Below, one piece after another: positions 3,900-59,675 of a stretch of 64,000 nt of DNA. Made by a program: the position numbers and the translations under genes. Under the pieces are notes generated by a model. It saw only the letters and a program-made list of their open reading frames with translations. It was not told the origin of the DNA and made no database searches. This stretch comes from an uncultured Bacteroidales bacterium (lineage in GTDB: Bacteria > Bacteroidota > Bacteroidia > Bacteroidales > Paludibacteraceae). The stretch lies in NCBI GenBank assembly GCA_903901975.1, contig CAIUTB010000118.1:62001-126000 (forward strand), written 5' to 3'. How positions within the stretch are numbered: position 1 is the first letter of the stretch; each line of letters begins with the position of its first letter.

Positions 3900-3912
3900 A
3901 TAATATTTCTAT

Positions 3913-3954
3913 TAACTATCAACTATTAACTGTCAACTATAAACTATAAACTAT
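3913..3954. repeat. Heptameric tandem array (NAACTRT)x6
   Basis: TAACTAT CAACTAT TAACTGT CAACTAT AAACTAT AAACTAT read directly; overlaps the stop codon of the 3951-5057 ORF. Confidence 0.85.
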
Positions 3955-5057
3955 TCAAGTCGTACTTTAAACTTTTTCAAACTTATTGTTACCAAAACAG
4001 TTGCCATCAGTAGCAGAACACCCACATCTTTCAATACAGCACCCAGACCAAGTCCTTTTATCATGATGGTTTTAACTGCATCGATATACCAGCGTGCCGG
4101 TACAAAATTGGATATAAAGCGAAGAAAGGCGGGCATATTTTCTATGGGGAAAATCATTCCCGAAAGCAACATCACGGGTATCATTAAACCCATCCCTGAA
4201 ATCATCATAGCAGCCAACTGTGAATTCGTAACGGTTGAAATAAGTAAGCCCAAAGCCAATGCAACAAAAATATAGAGTAACGAAACAATAAGTAAACTGA
4301 TAAAACTACCGGCAATAGGGACTTTCAGTACAAAAACCGAAAGTAACATGATGGTGGCGAAATTGATGACAGAAAGCACAAAATAAGGTGATATTTTCGA
4401 TAGAATAGTATACATCGGTTTCATCGGCGACACAAGGAGAATTTCCATTGTTCCCATTTCTTTTTCTCGTACTATCGCAATCGAAGTCATCATGGCGCAA
4501 ATTAAAATCATAATCATACCAAGAACCCCTGGCACAAAATTGAAAGCGCTCAGCATTTGTGGGTTGTAAAGCATTTTTACTTCAGGTACAATCATACCTC
4601 CACCCGATTGTGGTTGCGAAATATCCTGCTGGTAATTGCTTATGATATTCGAAGCATAAAACATAAATGAATTAGCCGCATTGGGATCAGTGGCATCGGC
4701 AATCAACTGAATATGAGATTTTCCGGTATGTTTCAAATTTTCCGAAAAATGATCCTCGAAAATCATGGCCAATTTGGCTTTCCCGTCACGAAATGCAGCG
4801 TCAATTTCATCCGAATTATGGACTGTTCCAACTACATCGAAATACTCACTGGCATCGATACGATTAATTATACGACGTGTTGCTTCATCACTAGTTGTTG
4901 AAAGCACAACCACTTTGGTGTTTTTCACCTCCTGCGACAACGCAAAACCAAATAGAATAATCTGTATGATTGGCATCATCAACAAAATCATCACTGTGGC
5001 TTTGTCGCGGAAAATATGGTGAAATTCCTTTCGGATAAAAGAAAAAAGTTGTTTCAT
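3951..5057 (-). CDS. ABC-2 type transporter permease (YbhS/YbhR-like)
   Basis: FIRKEFHHIFRDKATVMILLMMPIIQIILFGFA and REKEMGTMEILLVSPMKP; paralog of the neighbouring permease. Confidence 0.88.
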   Translation of the reverse strand: MKQLFSFIRKEFHHIFRDKATVMILLMMPIIQIILFGFALSQEVKNTKVVVLSTTSDEATRRIINRIDASEYFDVVGTVHNSDEIDAAFRDGKAKLAMIFEDHFSENLKHTGKSHIQLIADATDPNAANSFMFYASNIISNYQQDISQPQSGGGMIVPEVKMLYNPQMLSAFNFVPGVLGMIMILICAMMTSIAIVREKEMGTMEILLVSPMKPMYTILSKISPYFVLSVINFATIMLLSVFVLKVPIAGSFISLLIVSLLYIFVALALGLLISTVTNSQLAAMMISGMGLMIPVMLLSGMIFPIENMPAFLRFISNFVPARWYIDAVKTIMIKGLGLGAVLKDVGVLLLMATVLVTISLKKFKVRLE

Positions 5058-5063
5058 GTCGTT

Positions 5064-5098
5064 AGTTGACAGTTGATAGTTGAGAATTGATAGTTATT
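5064..5098. repeat. Heptameric array, inverted relative to the other copies; left arm of a 15-bp inverted repeat pair
   Basis: AGTTGAC AGTTGAT AGTTGAG AATTGAT AGTTATT; 5064-5078 (agttgacagttgata) is the exact reverse complement of 5501-5515. Confidence 0.85.
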
Positions 5099-5456
5099 TG
5101 TTTTTTATATTGTCCTTTGAAGACTTTATAATGCTTATCAACATTTTGATTAATTCCTGACAGTCTGAAACAATTGAATTAAATGACTTGTCATCCAAAT
5201 AGCCACTATCATGCAACAGCATTAACCAATACTCCGTTTCATTAGCTTCTTTAAGTGAAATACTTAGTTTGTGGATAAAATCAGCTTTTGATTCAGCATG
5301 TTCGGCCTCTCTAATTAACGCTCCAATTGCAGTACCACTTCTCAACAATTGTTTTGAAAGGACAAATTCTCGTTGCTCAGCACTTAAAAAATTATATGCT
5401 TTTATAATTCTCAATGCGAATGCATAAGATTTAAATTTTACAGTATTTTCTTCCAT
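5094..5456 (-). CDS. Four-helix bundle protein (S23 / 23S rRNA intervening-sequence family, TIGR02436-like)
   Basis: LSAEQREFVLSKQLLRSGTAIGALIREAEHAESKADFIHKLSISLKEANETEYWLMLL is the family pattern. The upstream 19 codons of the track ORF are repeat-derived, so MEEN at 5456 is preferred. Confidence 0.88.
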   Translation of the reverse strand: MEENTVKFKSYAFALRIIKAYNFLSAEQREFVLSKQLLRSGTAIGALIREAEHAESKADFIHKLSISLKEANETEYWLMLLHDSGYLDDKSFNSIVSDCQELIKMLISIIKSSKDNIKNK

Positions 5457-5490
5457 TTCTAAATTAATTATGTTTATTTTCTTCGCTGTC

Positions 5491-5518
5491 AACTGACAAT
5501 TATCAACTGTCAACTCTT
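5491..5518. repeat. Heptameric array; right arm of the inverted repeat pair around the four-helix bundle gene
   Basis: AACTGAC AATTATC AACTGTC AACTCTT; tatcaactgtcaact (5501-5515) is the exact reverse complement of 5064-5078. Confidence 0.85.
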
Positions 5519-6258
5519 TTAGCTTTTCGGGCTAACTGCTGGAAAACTTCGTCCATATTTTTTGCATTGAATTGCTTTTTGAGATTATCGGGCGAATCAA
5601 GTGCTTCAATACGTCCGTCAACCATGATGGAAACGCGGTCGCAATACTCGGCTTCATCCATATAATGCGTTGTCACAAAAACGGTTATTCCCTGAGCAGT
5701 TGCATCGTAAATCATTTCCCAGAATCGGCGGCGCGTAATCGGGTCAACACCTCCGGTTGGCTCATCCAAAAATACTACCTGTGGCTGATGAAAAATAGAA
5801 ACGGAGAAAGCAAGTTTCTGCTTAAAGCCTAATGGTAAAGACTTTACCAGCTTATCACGTTCATCTTCAAAGTTCAGTTTTATCATCAGCTCATCGGTTT
5901 TCTGTTTGATAACCTTGTCGTTCATACCGTAAATTCCGCCAAAAAGTTCCAGGTTTTCCCACACTTTCAGATCCTCGTACATCGAGAATTTCTGACTCAT
6001 GTAACCAATACTTTTCTTAATCAGTTCGGGTTGTTTGAAAATGTCGTATCCGGCTACCGTTCCTTTGCCTTCAGTGGGAATGCTGAGTCCGCAAAGCATG
6101 CGCATGGCTGTGGTTTTTCCGGCACCGTTGGCACCCAGAAACCCGAAAATTTCACCCCGCTTCACTTCAAACGAAATATTATCGACTGCCGTGAAATTGC
6201 CAAACCGTTTGGTCAGATTTTCAACTTTTATTACTGTTTCCATTGCTCTGCGCATCAA
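5503..6258 (-). CDS. ABC transporter ATP-binding protein (YbhF-like half)
   Basis: Walker A GANGAGKTT, Walker B VVFLDEPTGGVDP, MDEAEYCDR. Confidence 0.92.
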   Translation of the reverse strand: MMRRAMETVIKVENLTKRFGNFTAVDNISFEVKRGEIFGFLGANGAGKTTAMRMLCGLSIPTEGKGTVAGYDIFKQPELIKKSIGYMSQKFSMYEDLKVWENLELFGGIYGMNDKVIKQKTDELMIKLNFEDERDKLVKSLPLGFKQKLAFSVSIFHQPQVVFLDEPTGGVDPITRRRFWEMIYDATAQGITVFVTTHYMDEAEYCDRVSIMVDGRIEALDSPDNLKKQFNAKNMDEVFQQLARKAKRVDS

Positions 6259-7193
6259 ATTTGTGTAGTGGATAATTCCATAAAACAGTCCTCAATGGTT
6301 GGTTCAATCGCCTCAATTTTAATATTTTTATGGCCTTTCTCAATCAAATACTTCTTCAAACTATCAACTGTCAACTGTCCATTGTCAACTGTAACGTGTA
6401 TCGAATCTCCAAATGCAAAACTGCTTTTTACCTGTTCGTCTTTGCGCAGATCCTCCAGCAATTTGTGCATATTGTCGCTTTTGGCAGCCCAAAGCACATC
6501 GTCAAACTGACTGACAATATTCTCGGGTGTATCTATTTTCAAAAACTGTCCGTTTTGGATCAACGCAATTCGGTCGCACAGGCTGGCTTCGTCCATGTAA
6601 GGCGTGGAAACCAAAATTGTAATCCCCTGTTCCCGAAGCTTTTGAAGCATTCCCCAGAATTCCTTGCGCGAAACCGGGTCTACACCGGTAGTCGGTTCAT
6701 CCAGAAAAAGTACCGAAGGTTTATGAATCAATGCGCAACTTAAGGCTAATTTTTGCTTCATTCCACCCGAAAGTTTTCCTGCCCTACGTTTTTTGAATGG
6801 CTCAATCTGAACATAAATGTCTTTTACCAGCTCGTAATTTTCTTCAATGGTGGTATTGAAAACAGTTGCAAAAAACTCGAGATTTTCTTCTACCGTCAAA
6901 TCCTGATACAACGAGAAACGTCCCGGCATATATCCAACCCGTTTACGGATTTCCTTGTAATCTTTTAGCACGTCAAAGCCGTCGATTGCTGCGGTTCCGC
7001 TTTCGGCCAAAATCAGCGTGGTAAGTATGCGAAAGAGAGTAGTTTTTCCTGCTCCATCAGGGCCGATAATTCCGAAAATTTCTGCACGATTTACATCAAA
7101 ATTGATGTTGGAGAGTGCCTGAATTTTTCCGTAATTCTTGCTCACGGATTCACAGTGGATGGCAATGTCTGGTAGGTTTTCTGAGGTATTCAT
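6255..7193 (-). CDS. ABC transporter ATP-binding protein (YbhF-like half)
   Basis: GPDGAGKTT, KLSGGMKQKLALSCALIHKPSVLFLDEPTTGVDP, MDEASLCDR; 4-bp overlap with the next ATPase gene. Confidence 0.92.
   Translation of the reverse strand: MNTSENLPDIAIHCESVSKNYGKIQALSNINFDVNRAEIFGIIGPDGAGKTTLFRILTTLILAESGTAAIDGFDVLKDYKEIRKRVGYMPGRFSLYQDLTVEENLEFFATVFNTTIEENYELVKDIYVQIEPFKKRRAGKLSGGMKQKLALSCALIHKPSVLFLDEPTTGVDPVSRKEFWGMLQKLREQGITILVSTPYMDEASLCDRIALIQNGQFLKIDTPENIVSQFDDVLWAAKSDNMHKLLEDLRKDEQVKSSFAFGDSIHVTVDNGQLTVDSLKKYLIEKGHKNIKIEAIEPTIEDCFMELSTTQI
6359..6393. repeat. Heptameric array inside an ABC ATPase coding sequence
   Basis: AACTATC AACTGTC AACTGTC CATTGTC AACTGTA; translated in the gene frame as TVDNGQLTVDSL. 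Confidence 0.8.
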
Positions 7194-7209: not shown

Positions 7210-7236
7210 AACTATCAACTGTCAACTATCAATTGA
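7210..7236. repeat. Heptameric array over the HlyD stop codon
   Basis: AACTATC AACTGTC AACTATC AATTGA. Confidence 0.8.
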
Positions 7237-11759: not shown

Positions 11760-11769
11760 AATTCGGCAA

Positions 11770-11813
11770 TATAAACTATAAATTATAAACTATAAACTAT
11801 AAACTATAAACTA
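11770..11813. repeat. Heptameric array (ATAAACT)x6
   Basis: ATAAACT ATAAATT ATAAACT x4 between nnr and rlmF, reaching the rlmF stop codon. Confidence 0.85.
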
Positions 11814-12782
11814 AAGCGCATTCCAACGGGTTTCCAACCACTTTTTCTGTTGTGTTGGAGTTAAGAAACTCCATGCCAGAATCCGGCTGATTTTCGTTCC
11901 CTGTCCCATTGCTATGGTTTTTATATCCACTGCTCCGGCCAATTTCAAAGCTTCAAGAAGTGGTGCAACATGCACCTGCTTGGCAATCAAGGTTGAAAAC
12001 CAAAAACAATTCGTCGAAAATTGTTTGCTCTGACGAATCATATTGCGCACAAAACGTTCCTCACCACCATCGCACCACAATTCATTACTTTGTCCGCCAA
12101 AATTCAACACCGGAGTAGTTACTTTTTTGTGATTCAGACTGCTCAGTTTTCGAAGTGTACCTTTTTGCGCTTCTTCCAGCGACGAATGAAAAGGCGGATT
12201 GCAAATAGCTATATCAATTGGCTCGTTACGCTCCATCACTCCATGAAAAATATCATTCGGATTTTCCTGAAAACGCAGTTCAATATTTCTTTTTAGAAAA
12301 GCATTATTGCTAATAATTTTATTGGCCGATTCCAGTGCTGCTTTATCTATCTCAGTCCCGATAAACGACCAACCATATTCTTTATTGCCAACAACTGGAT
12401 AGATACAACTGGCTCCCACACCGATATCCATGCATTTCACTTTATAGCCGGTGGGAATTTTGCCATGATTCGACTTGCCCAACAGTTCTGCTATATGGTG
12501 AAGATAATCGGCTCTTCCGGGAATGGGTGGACACAAATAACCACTCGGTACGTCCCAGTATTCAAGAGTGTAATACTGTTTAAGTAAAGCCTTGTTCAAC
12601 CATTTTACCGCTTTCGGATTGGCAAAATCAATCGATTCGTCGCCATAGGGATTCAGTTTCACATACTTGCCCAGTTCAGGACAAGCTGACTTCAGCAAGT
12701 TGAAATCATAACGCTCCCGATGCTTATTTCGTGGGTGTAAAACGGACTTTTCGGCAGGATGTTCTTTTTTATTCTCAGACAT
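11811..12782 (-). CDS. rlmF: 23S rRNA (adenine(1618)-N(6))-methyltransferase
   Basis: LHPRNKHRERYDFNLLKSACPELGKYVKLNPYGDESIDFANPKAVKWLNKALL and NPPFHSS catalytic motif. Confidence 0.92.
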   Translation of the reverse strand: MSENKKEHPAEKSVLHPRNKHRERYDFNLLKSACPELGKYVKLNPYGDESIDFANPKAVKWLNKALLKQYYTLEYWDVPSGYLCPPIPGRADYLHHIAELLGKSNHGKIPTGYKVKCMDIGVGASCIYPVVGNKEYGWSFIGTEIDKAALESANKIISNNAFLKRNIELRFQENPNDIFHGVMERNEPIDIAICNPPFHSSLEEAQKGTLRKLSSLNHKKVTTPVLNFGGQSNELWCDGGEERFVRNMIRQSKQFSTNCFWFSTLIAKQVHVAPLLEALKLAGAVDIKTIAMGQGTKISRILAWSFLTPTQQKKWLETRWNAL

Positions 12783-47646: not shown

Positions 47647-47747
47647 TGGTTTATTGTGTTGATTAGAAGATGTAAAAATGAAATGAATCTCTTATTTACT
47701 GCCACTATTAACTGTCAATTGTCAATTGTCAACCGCTTACTGCTATT

Positions 47748-50982: not shown

Positions 50983-50997
50983 TTGTCTGCTTACTAC

Positions 50998-53217
50998 TTA
51001 TTGCTTATTGCTTACTGCTACTAACAATGCATCCAGCATCAACGGAATTTCATCCTTGTCAATTCCATTTGCAATCAGATAAGACTTATCTTCATTAAAA
51101 GCTCCAAGAAACAAATCGTGCTTATTCTCATGCAATTCAATGGTTTTACGATATAAGTTTATGGCTTCGGTATGTTTCTTCTGACACCAGGCTATGTGAG
51201 CTGCATTCATAAAATCCTGCACATTGGGTTCAGTCTCAATCAGCTTACTAACATAATAATCAGCCTGTTTGACATTACCCGAAACAAACGAACACCAAGT
51301 TATTGCCCGCCACACCTTCACATTTTCGCCTTCGAGGGCATCCAGTTTAAAATAAATATTCAAGGCTTCTTTGAATTTTCTCAATTCCACAAAACAATGT
51401 GCAATTTGCATCAAAACTAGGTTTTGATTAGGTTTTAGATGATCTACATGATGGTAGAATTCAAGTGCCTTCTCAAAATTACCCGACAATCTATAACAAA
51501 GTGCCATTTTGCGAACTGTCCAAATATCGTCGGGCTGAATAATATCAGCTTTATTATAAGCGTCAAGTGCTTTCTCGAATTGTGAAGTCTGCTGATATAT
51601 ATACCCAATTTTCTGATATAGGGCAGCCATTGGAGTTATTTCGTGCTGAATTTCCTCAAACAGTTCAAGTGCTGGAATAAAATGGCTTTTTGAGAAATAA
51701 TATTCGGCAATACTTATTTTAAAATCGTGGTCATTCGACAAAATATCAAATAAAAATGAGTGGTGCATCGACAGTGAATAACTAAACATATCTGCGAAAT
51801 CGCCATGTTTCGAATACAGCTTAAAAAAGCGGAACAAATCCTGGATATATTGTTTCGAAATATTTTTTGTGGCTAAATTTGGGTTAAGTATAGCTTCGTC
51901 GTTTGTCAACTCTGCCAACTGTTCAGCTTCCATTTTGAACGAATTCTTTAGCATGCCACGTTGTGATTCTGGCATTTGCAAAATACTGAGACAAAAAGAG
52001 TATTTATCCGAATTACACATAATGTTATTCCCCACAAAAGCAGAAATCAATGAATTATCATCCGGTTTAAAAAGCTCTTTTACAGTAGAGTATTTTGTGT
52101 CGAAAGGCAAAAACCAATTACTCGTTTCTGAGAAAAATGGAAAATTCTTCAGAAGTGAAAAGGTACTCATATAAACATCAGCACCTTCCATTTGCAGTTC
52201 GCTCAGTTCTTTCAGTTTATCGGATATTCCACTTTTATCAAGCATTTCCTGCCATTCAGGATTTTCTTCACCCCAGTCATCTGAATTTAAAAGTGAGTCT
52301 GGGTCCATTTTATCCTTCAGCAACGGACTGATTTTCATCATCTCAGGCAGAATTTCTTCCTGCATTTTCTTTGAAATCTTTTCAGTTTCGGCTGTTGAGA
52401 TTATCTGAATTAATATGGTTTGAAAATTATCAACCACATGATTATCGTCTGCCAATAAAACCAACCGATTTCGAATAGCAGGAAAATAGGGCAAAAAACG
52501 GTTGTATCGAGCCATCACAAAACTCAATCCAACCATGGCACGCTGTCTGACCATCTGATTCTCTGACTGACAAGCATCGAGTAGCATCATCATTTTGCGC
52601 TCGTCGAACATGCGCCACAAATTGAGCGTCAGCGCAGAAATAAGGATTGATTTTTCTAAAAAACCCGGATAAGAATCAATTAGAATCTGCTCAAAAAGTT
52701 TTTTCTCCTCCGATTCATACGAAGTTGCTAACCAGAATATGTTAAATAGCTCGGGCAAAGCAGTCTCATAATTTGATCGCAAGCGGTTCTTTTCTAACTC
52801 ATGGCTATCCTGCAGATTAGAAATTAAAATAGATTGAGAATGATAATACCGGAGCGATATCAGTAATTCAGCGGGTGATTTATATTTTTTTGTGTAAGGA
52901 AAATAACGTTTCTGAGTATATTCAAAATTTGTTGAATTACGAAATAACAGTTCTTCTCGCAATTCAGCATCCAAAACAAACAATTTGGCAATCAGCTTAT
53001 TATAAACTGATTTACGTTCAGGATCTTCAACTCCGGTAATATAGTATTGCAGGAGAAAACGGTAATTTTGATGCAGGTCATTCAATCGATCGGTATATTC
53101 TCCGAGTTGCAACTCATTAGTTAAATCTTCTATTTTTGCAATCGCAGTCGTTATCTGACCAGTAGCCAGAAAGTGTAAAACCGAATTATATGTTGAATGA
53201 ATTTGGGAAGAATCCAT
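50998..53217 (-). CDS. Tetratricopeptide-repeat protein
   Basis: C-terminal TPRs (AALYQKIGYIYQQTSQFEKALDAYNKADIIQPDDIWTVRKMALCYRLSGNFEKALEFYHHVDHLKP). Confidence 0.85.
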   Translation of the reverse strand: MDSSQIHSTYNSVLHFLATGQITTAIAKIEDLTNELQLGEYTDRLNDLHQNYRFLLQYYITGVEDPERKSVYNKLIAKLFVLDAELREELLFRNSTNFEYTQKRYFPYTKKYKSPAELLISLRYYHSQSILISNLQDSHELEKNRLRSNYETALPELFNIFWLATSYESEEKKLFEQILIDSYPGFLEKSILISALTLNLWRMFDERKMMMLLDACQSENQMVRQRAMVGLSFVMARYNRFLPYFPAIRNRLVLLADDNHVVDNFQTILIQIISTAETEKISKKMQEEILPEMMKISPLLKDKMDPDSLLNSDDWGEENPEWQEMLDKSGISDKLKELSELQMEGADVYMSTFSLLKNFPFFSETSNWFLPFDTKYSTVKELFKPDDNSLISAFVGNNIMCNSDKYSFCLSILQMPESQRGMLKNSFKMEAEQLAELTNDEAILNPNLATKNISKQYIQDLFRFFKLYSKHGDFADMFSYSLSMHHSFLFDILSNDHDFKISIAEYYFSKSHFIPALELFEEIQHEITPMAALYQKIGYIYQQTSQFEKALDAYNKADIIQPDDIWTVRKMALCYRLSGNFEKALEFYHHVDHLKPNQNLVLMQIAHCFVELRKFKEALNIYFKLDALEGENVKVWRAITWCSFVSGNVKQADYYVSKLIETEPNVQDFMNAAHIAWCQKKHTEAINLYRKTIELHENKHDLFLGAFNEDKSYLIANGIDKDEIPLMLDALLVAVSNKQ

Positions 53218-59571: not shown

Positions 59572-59585
59572 TAGTAATTAGTTGG

Positions 59586-59670
59586 CAGTTTATCGTTTAC
59601 AGTTTATAATGAATTAAATAAGCAATTTGTTGTTTAAATTTTTAACTAATAATAAACTGTCAACTATGAA
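59586..59670. repeat. Oppositely oriented heptamer-family arrays forming a possible hairpin between ndk and the M23 gene
   Basis: cagtttatcgtttacagtttat near 59586-59607 and ataaactgtcaactatgaact near 59650-59670. Confidence 0.55.
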
Positions 59671-59675
59671 CTAAT

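Follow-up and report, generated by a model that had tools for sequence, protein, structure and literature searches.

A four-helix-bundle (4HB) gene lies within an ABC exporter operon of the window, that is, of the whole 64,000-nucleotide stretch analyzed here. With a probability of about two in three, it belongs to a copy of a widespread element resembling the intervening sequences (IVSs) of rRNA and representing their counterpart in protein operons. The best reading of this IVS-like operon element is slow mobility, or else repeated gain and loss. Since the 1990s the IVS/S23 protein has posed a puzzle, being conserved although its gene lies in an rRNA insertion that is excised and degraded. 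To our knowledge, the S23/4HB family has been discussed so far mainly as a passenger of ribosomal RNA genes. A search of the open full-text literature, with subscription journals outside its scope, returned no account of protein operons in which heptamer arrays flank an S23/4HB gene.

The window element and its protein

The operon is ordered TetR-TolC-HlyD-ATPase-ATPase-4HB-permease-permease, as a preliminary description of this DNA had proposed, and the 4HB gene is indeed the sole gene between the two repeats (Table 1). The exact reverse-complement 15-mers noticed earlier are present at 5064-5078 (+) and 5501-5515 (-). They constitute the perfect core of 30-nt arms, 83% complementary to each other, both of which are 7-bp tandem arrays (TRF: 5063-5095 and 5486-5515, period 7) with a degenerate consensus of about AGTTGAY. 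The complete element measures roughly 0.45 kb. The array of the 5' arm supplies the last codons and the stop of ATPase 2 (VDS*), and the permease starts just outside the opposite arm, both as previously claimed. The element thus sits between two protein genes and not inside 23S rRNA, and an Rfam search of the window gave no match.

Table 1. Coordinates of the window element, its host genes and neighboring heptamer arrays
Feature	Position	Strand	Remarks
4HB gene (S23 / 23S rRNA-IVS protein), 120 aa from ATG	5094..5456	-	PF05635/TIGR02436 match
Alternative longer 4HB frame, TTG start	reads to 5513	-	
5' arm, upstream of the 4HB gene	5486..5515	-	AGTTGAC AGTTGAT AATTGTC AGTTGAC AG
3' arm, downstream of the 4HB gene	5064..5093	+	inverted heptamer array, 6 bp before permease ATG
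Upstream host gene, ABC ATPase 2	5503..6258	-	C-terminus RVDS*; RKAD* in empty orthologues
Downstream host gene, ABC-2 permease 1	3951..5057	-	ATG at 5057
Solo heptamer array without 4HB gene, permease 1 / permease 2 junction	3909..3957	-	
Heptamer array in frame within ATPase 1	6353..6394	-	read as VTVDNGQLTVDS
Solo heptamer array, HlyD / ATPase 1 junction	7210..7234	-	

The AGTTGAY family is not exclusive to the 4HB gene. Matches to the repeat with up to 3 mismatches number 33 in the window against 2.5 expected, and arrays of this family include the last three entries of Table 1 and another at 11767-11818. The in-frame array of ATPase 1 was considered as an insertion, and this was dropped, since close relatives carry a segment of equal length at this place. 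Solo period-7 arrays are also observed at or near gene ends at 11767-11818, 47703-47735 and 50986-51020, the last with a different word, CTGCTTA. At 59580-59672, AGTTGAC/AGTTTAT heptamers form an inverted pair with a spacing of about 40 bp and no gene, perhaps a minimal element, or a decayed one, that lacks the 4HB gene.

The window protein matches PF05635 (E 5.7e-29, 100.9 bits, cut-off 33.8) and TIGR02436 (E 4.6e-32, 110.5 bits, cut-off 24). Its AlphaFold model (pLDDT 94) has 2RLD (BT_0352) as best PDB match, with 61% identity and a TM-score of 0.9, and also superposes on XCC0516 (2GSC). Both are solved structures of the same family, with five chains in each entry, and were deposited as proteins of unknown function without any element context. 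Superposition on Avd (4DWL chain D) gives a TM-score of 0.76/0.85 with an E-value that is not significant. The window protein is Avd-like in fold and probably pentameric. At the window site the protein is under purifying selection, with a dN/dS of 0.04-0.05 for the two orthologue pairs with measurable dS; among the window-site orthologues, dN ranges from 0.07 to 0.17 and dS is mostly saturated. The window genome gives 12 TIGR02436 matches, corresponding to about 11 genes, and several of its other 4HB copies contain stop codons.

Inverted heptamer arrays around 4HB genes of Bacteroidota

Inverted short repeats surround nearly every 4HB gene of the window genome, with a different word each time; the arm words seen are GTTACRA, GTGTARTT, AGTTGAY, AAAGTTNT, GCAGTRG, AGTTTAT, GGTAAGC and others. 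An arm score comparing, per locus, the left flank with the reverse complement of the right flank was used to quantify this arrangement. For 34 loci of the same order, own pairs reached a median score of 37.5 and pairs permuted between loci one of 20; 28 of the 34 own pairs exceeded the permuted 95th percentile. The 76 loci taken from other genomes, almost all of them Bacteroidota, gave a median of 31 versus 18 for permuted pairs (p 7e-39); random places in the same loci also gave 18, and 44 loci scored above their 99th percentile. A phylum-wide sample of 29 loci had a median of 28 compared with 19 for 407 control genes, and scores of at least 30 were reached by 13/29 4HB loci against 18/407 controls. 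Since loci below threshold often show short tandem words by eye, these fractions are conservative. Three loci (L131, L148 and L180) showed no visible arms; a location in rRNA was rejected for them, as none had an rRNA match. Collectively, these data show that the inverted-array anatomy around 4HB genes is general in Bacteroidota, and almost universal.

The best period of the arms was 7 bp in 82 of 94 loci, with shuffled arms spread over 5-12, and array periods other than 7 are rare. The 74 kb surrounding 4HB genes contain 46 period-7 arrays, and 782 kb of other sequence contain 32, an enrichment of about 12-15-fold at 4HB genes. Across the different words there is a weak consensus, nnnnAGW, of 2.23 bits versus 1.62-1.71 in permuted controls. 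The L007 and L008 proteins are 67% identical and have unrelated words, which indicates that the protein does not determine the word. A cognate pairing of protein and word as in REP/RAYT systems was also considered, and the correlation between protein and word similarity was weak (Mantel r about 0.2) and resembles shared descent.

These observations require a correction of the preliminary description, which had taken the perfect 15-bp repeats for fixed, transposon-like ends. This is wrong, since they are part of a degenerate 7-bp array whose word differs between copies. It had also proposed to search the flanks of other S23-family genes for AGTTGACAGTTGATA; as the word varies from locus to locus, such a search would mostly fail, although the inverted-array architecture is nearly universal.

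Heptamer arrays away from any 4HB gene were found in 57 cases. Solo arrays lying a few kb from a 4HB gene often share its arm word (L119, L134, L152, L161, L168, L173, L175 and L181), which suggests local spread or homogenization of the word.

Filled, empty and scarred junctions

4HB genes are carried by 88 of the 118 sampled high-quality Bacteroidota genomes, in 1-16 copies. Their hosts in the window genome include the sdhA/sdhB and citrate synthase/isocitrate dehydrogenase junctions; elsewhere they include fadB/fadA, fadA/acyl-CoA dehydrogenase and the methylmalonyl-CoA mutase subunits (mutA/mutB). Gene names of hosts are our own reading of the protein sequences, except where a Pfam match is cited. 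Residence in the same operon recurs, with 16 fadB-4HB-fadA loci and 16 fadA-4HB-acyl-CoA dehydrogenase loci. The sample of genome contigs was drawn with one 4HB subfamily (A2), which favors certain operons. The 4HB gene is co-directional with both neighbors in 72/74 loci and, in the phylum sample, in 20/25. The background co-directionality of adjacent gene pairs is 77%, and a randomly oriented insertion would match both neighbors in less than half of cases.

At the window junction, the 4HB gene and heptamer arrays are present in eight congeneric genomes, the window's own counted, though with a weak inverted arm match (score 14-15) in G001, G007 and G022. The preliminary description had proposed looking for an empty site in related operons, and such a site does exist: the ATPase stop, 2 bp and the permease ATG follow each other directly in G015, G017, G020, G005, G009, G008 and G011, and the outgroup G027 shows the same 2-bp junction. 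The ATPase ends with RKAD* in most empty alleles and with RVDS*, read from the array, in most filled ones; the insert has replaced the last codons of ATPase 2 instead of purely adding sequence. Scarred alleles are also found. G013 retains a remnant and its ATPase ends with RVDR*; in G019 and G002, leftover heptamers precede an unrelated palindrome about 110 bp long.

Mapped on the permease tree, the filled state implies five changes or more, three of them required by well-supported branches, and the ATPase tree rejects a single clade of empty alleles (p-AU 0.0017). Proteins encoded by the 4HB genes of the window site group in a single clade (support 100/95), indicating that much of their history is vertical and that any mobility must be slow. 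We conclude that the unit arrived at the window junction early in the history of the genus, after which it was repeatedly lost, replaced or exchanged. The resulting patchiness may reflect loss or recombination with empty alleles, both being compatible with the data. Six other 4HB sites of the window genome, compared in seven congeners, likewise have alleles without the gene; for instance, the sdhA/sdhB junction carries the unit in G016, G018, G019 and G022 but lacks it in G015 and G017. No clear target-site duplication was seen at the inspected junctions, where the divergence of the relatives precludes a strict test and blurs the exact ends of the element.

Copies at different sites show that the gene and part of the arms moved as a unit. 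The L056 gene is 83-84% identical to those of L050 and L104, which lie at another site, between an aldolase/dehydrogenase gene and a zinc alcohol dehydrogenase gene. It is only 74-79% identical to L053, L102 and L107, despite the same downstream gene, that of the methylmalonyl-CoA mutase large subunit, which all four precede. Similarity between L050 and L056 begins 45 bp ahead of the matched gene stretch and stops 4 bp short of its end, while their flanks are unrelated, bar one 59-bp match. Such near-identical units with unrelated flanks indicate joint movement of the gene and part of its arms. L050 and L056 are also sisters on the 4HB tree (support 98/93) and use the identical heptamer word. 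More generally, a tree of 75 4HB proteins requires no fewer than 20 switches of host context. These units, together with the empty, filled and scarred alleles of the window junction and six other sites, support the earlier proposal that a tiny element inserts an S23-family gene into an operon.

L160 and L169, from Flavobacterium and Lentimicrobium MAGs of different orders, have near-identical 4HB proteins and DNA 86% identical over 1.8 kb, which reflects either a recent transfer or a mis-binned contig. Several other repeats occupy similar places. A gene-less palindrome, CCCCTAAATCCCC...GGGGAC, of about 110-140 bp with inverted copies at both ends, is dispersed; its pattern has 35 matches in the window genome (G000) against 0 for the reversed control. 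This or a similar C/G-rich palindrome lies at operon junctions that hold 4HB elements in other species, namely in G019 and G002 (L073, L078), at sdhA/sdhB of G020 (L194) and at citrate synthase/icd of G015 (L184). It resembles a MITE or REP-like element that uses the landing sites of the 4HB units. ACTCACTTCGTTCGTGATAT and similar repeats are found at L192 and L210 (G019, G015), where the window genome holds a 4HB element (the L008 site), and this family also flanks a frameshifted 4HB gene of the window genome (L011/L012).

Relation to known systems and rival explanations

For comparison with rRNA IVSs we relied on one paper (PMC4990558). The IVS of Coxiella 23S rRNA has 428 nt, inverted termini and an S23p ORF in transcript sense; it is excised by RNase III and carries tandem GACAGAT heptamers upstream of the ORF (PMC4990558). 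The heptamer repeats at the 5' end of rRNA IVSs vary in number between strains, and IVSs with an S23p ORF, known from Coxiella burnetii and Leptospira, are patchy and have been proposed to be selfish (PMC4990558). The operon element has in common with them the S23p family, an ORF read in the direction of the host transcript, inverted termini able to form a stem, a size of about 0.43-0.45 kb and tandem heptamers. This makes the IVS its closest known object and RNase III processing a natural prediction. The two differ in their host, which is helix 9/25/45 of 23S rRNA for the IVS and a junction of protein genes for the window element, and in their protein, decaying in the IVS and under strong purifying selection in the window. 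Unlike IVSs, operon elements reach 1-16 copies per genome with differing heptamer words. The operon element is thus not an rRNA IVS by location but closely IVS-like by anatomy.

Other systems share fewer traits. REP/RAYT systems consist of a small gene between inverted short repeats, with related gene-less repeats dispersed intergenically. The 4HB element resembles them in its small gene, inverted short repeats and gene-less relatives, but it has no HUH/Y1 transposase and its word is not set by the protein. Likewise, there is no transposase and no fixed terminal inverted repeat shared between copies, as an IS or MITE would have, and the words differ from copy to copy. Homology between Avd and the 4HB family has been noted (PMC10053308), and Avd of diversity-generating retroelements (PDB 4DWL, 8UB7) shares the four-helix-bundle fold. 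However, the window element has neither a template repeat nor a variable repeat, and no reverse transcriptase adjoins it, every gene of the operon being assigned to another function. TAACTGA heptamer direct repeats of Beggiatoaceae, Cyanobacteria and some Bacteroidetes (PMC4679880) are similar as intergenic 7-bp tandem arrays near start codons, but have one fixed word, direct orientation and no reported link with S23/4HB genes.

In the predicted RNA of the operon strand, the arms form a 15-bp closing stem (z -2.17, with 0/100 shuffles as stable). Selection on this RNA stem was sought as an excess of wobble-compatible arm differences, and none was found (187 vs 170, p 0.40). Concerted evolution of the two arms gave a null result too, complementarity within a copy being not above that between orthologous copies (p 0.14). 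Since both tests are negative, the stem could be a by-product of the DNA-level origin of the element. Dependence on a reverse transcriptase was likewise unsupported: RVT_1 (PF00078) had no match in G016, G017, G019, G020 and G022, and, since G016, G017 and G022 hold 6-14 4HB matches, a resident enzyme is not required; this result does not in itself supply another mechanism of mobility. In the IVS-like reading, the element would have no promoter of its own and would be co-transcribed with the host operon. Its two arms could then pair and fold the 4HB gene into a loop, and RNase III might cut at the paired arms, by analogy with the rRNA IVS, whose terminal repeats pair before the cut and whose excision leaves the host RNA fragmented. 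The 4HB protein could bind its own element, mobilizing or protecting it, or alternatively tune the host mRNA. The earlier remark that no role is known for an S23 copy in an exporter operon still holds.

A bolder version of the same idea, which we put forward only tentatively, is a phylum-wide family of minimal mobile elements with the 4HB gene alone, in which the inverted heptamer arrays would serve as both recognition and terminal structure and rRNA IVSs would be a special case. An Avd-like protein of 110-130 aa would then be the sole encoded factor, with no transposase or resident reverse transcriptase.

The 4HB gene could instead be a long-lived operon regulator, whose protein binds the hairpin arms of the mRNA and sets the ratio of upstream to downstream expression; the arrays would be RNA operators, and losses, not movement, would cause the patchiness. 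The strong purifying selection, the single clade of window-site proteins, the near-constant sense orientation, the Avd-like fold and the repeated residence in the same central operons (the two groups of 16 fad loci) agree with such a role. Nevertheless, we consider it unlikely, given the changes of context on the 4HB tree, the sister copies at different sites, the empty outgroup, the 2-bp junctions intact in empty relatives, the copies with stop codons and the lack of arm covariation.

It is quite improbable that the arrays are a separate dispersed repeat, slippage-prone or MITE-like, which brackets 4HB genes merely as a by-product of permissive junctions. Their enrichment at 4HB genes, the inverted match of the arms locus by locus, its rarity at control genes of the same loci and the word shared by L050 and L056 together with the gene all contradict this explanation, even if many arrays stand alone, the same words recur at neighboring junctions and other gene-less palindromes use these junctions too. 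Finally, a chance match of two unrelated repeats or an assembly artefact, conceivable for a genome of 170 contigs, has a negligible probability, since the gene recurs at this junction in seven other genomes, including the one-contig G016, with arms detectable in most of them, and about 150 further loci were examined.

The IVS-like reading has in turn to accommodate the lack of an RNA-level signature and of a clear target-site duplication, the replaced ATPase codons, the arrays without a gene and the copy-rich genomes without reverse transcriptase. An S23 protein with inverted heptamer anatomy is here seen to be frequent in protein operons, central metabolic ones included. The question is thereby shifted from rRNA to mRNA, with hundreds of comparisons between filled and empty sites on offer. 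The old proposal that IVSs are mobile and that their ORF serves this mobility becomes testable in culturable Flavobacterium or Bacteroides, and genes annotated merely as "four helix bundle protein" gain a structural context.
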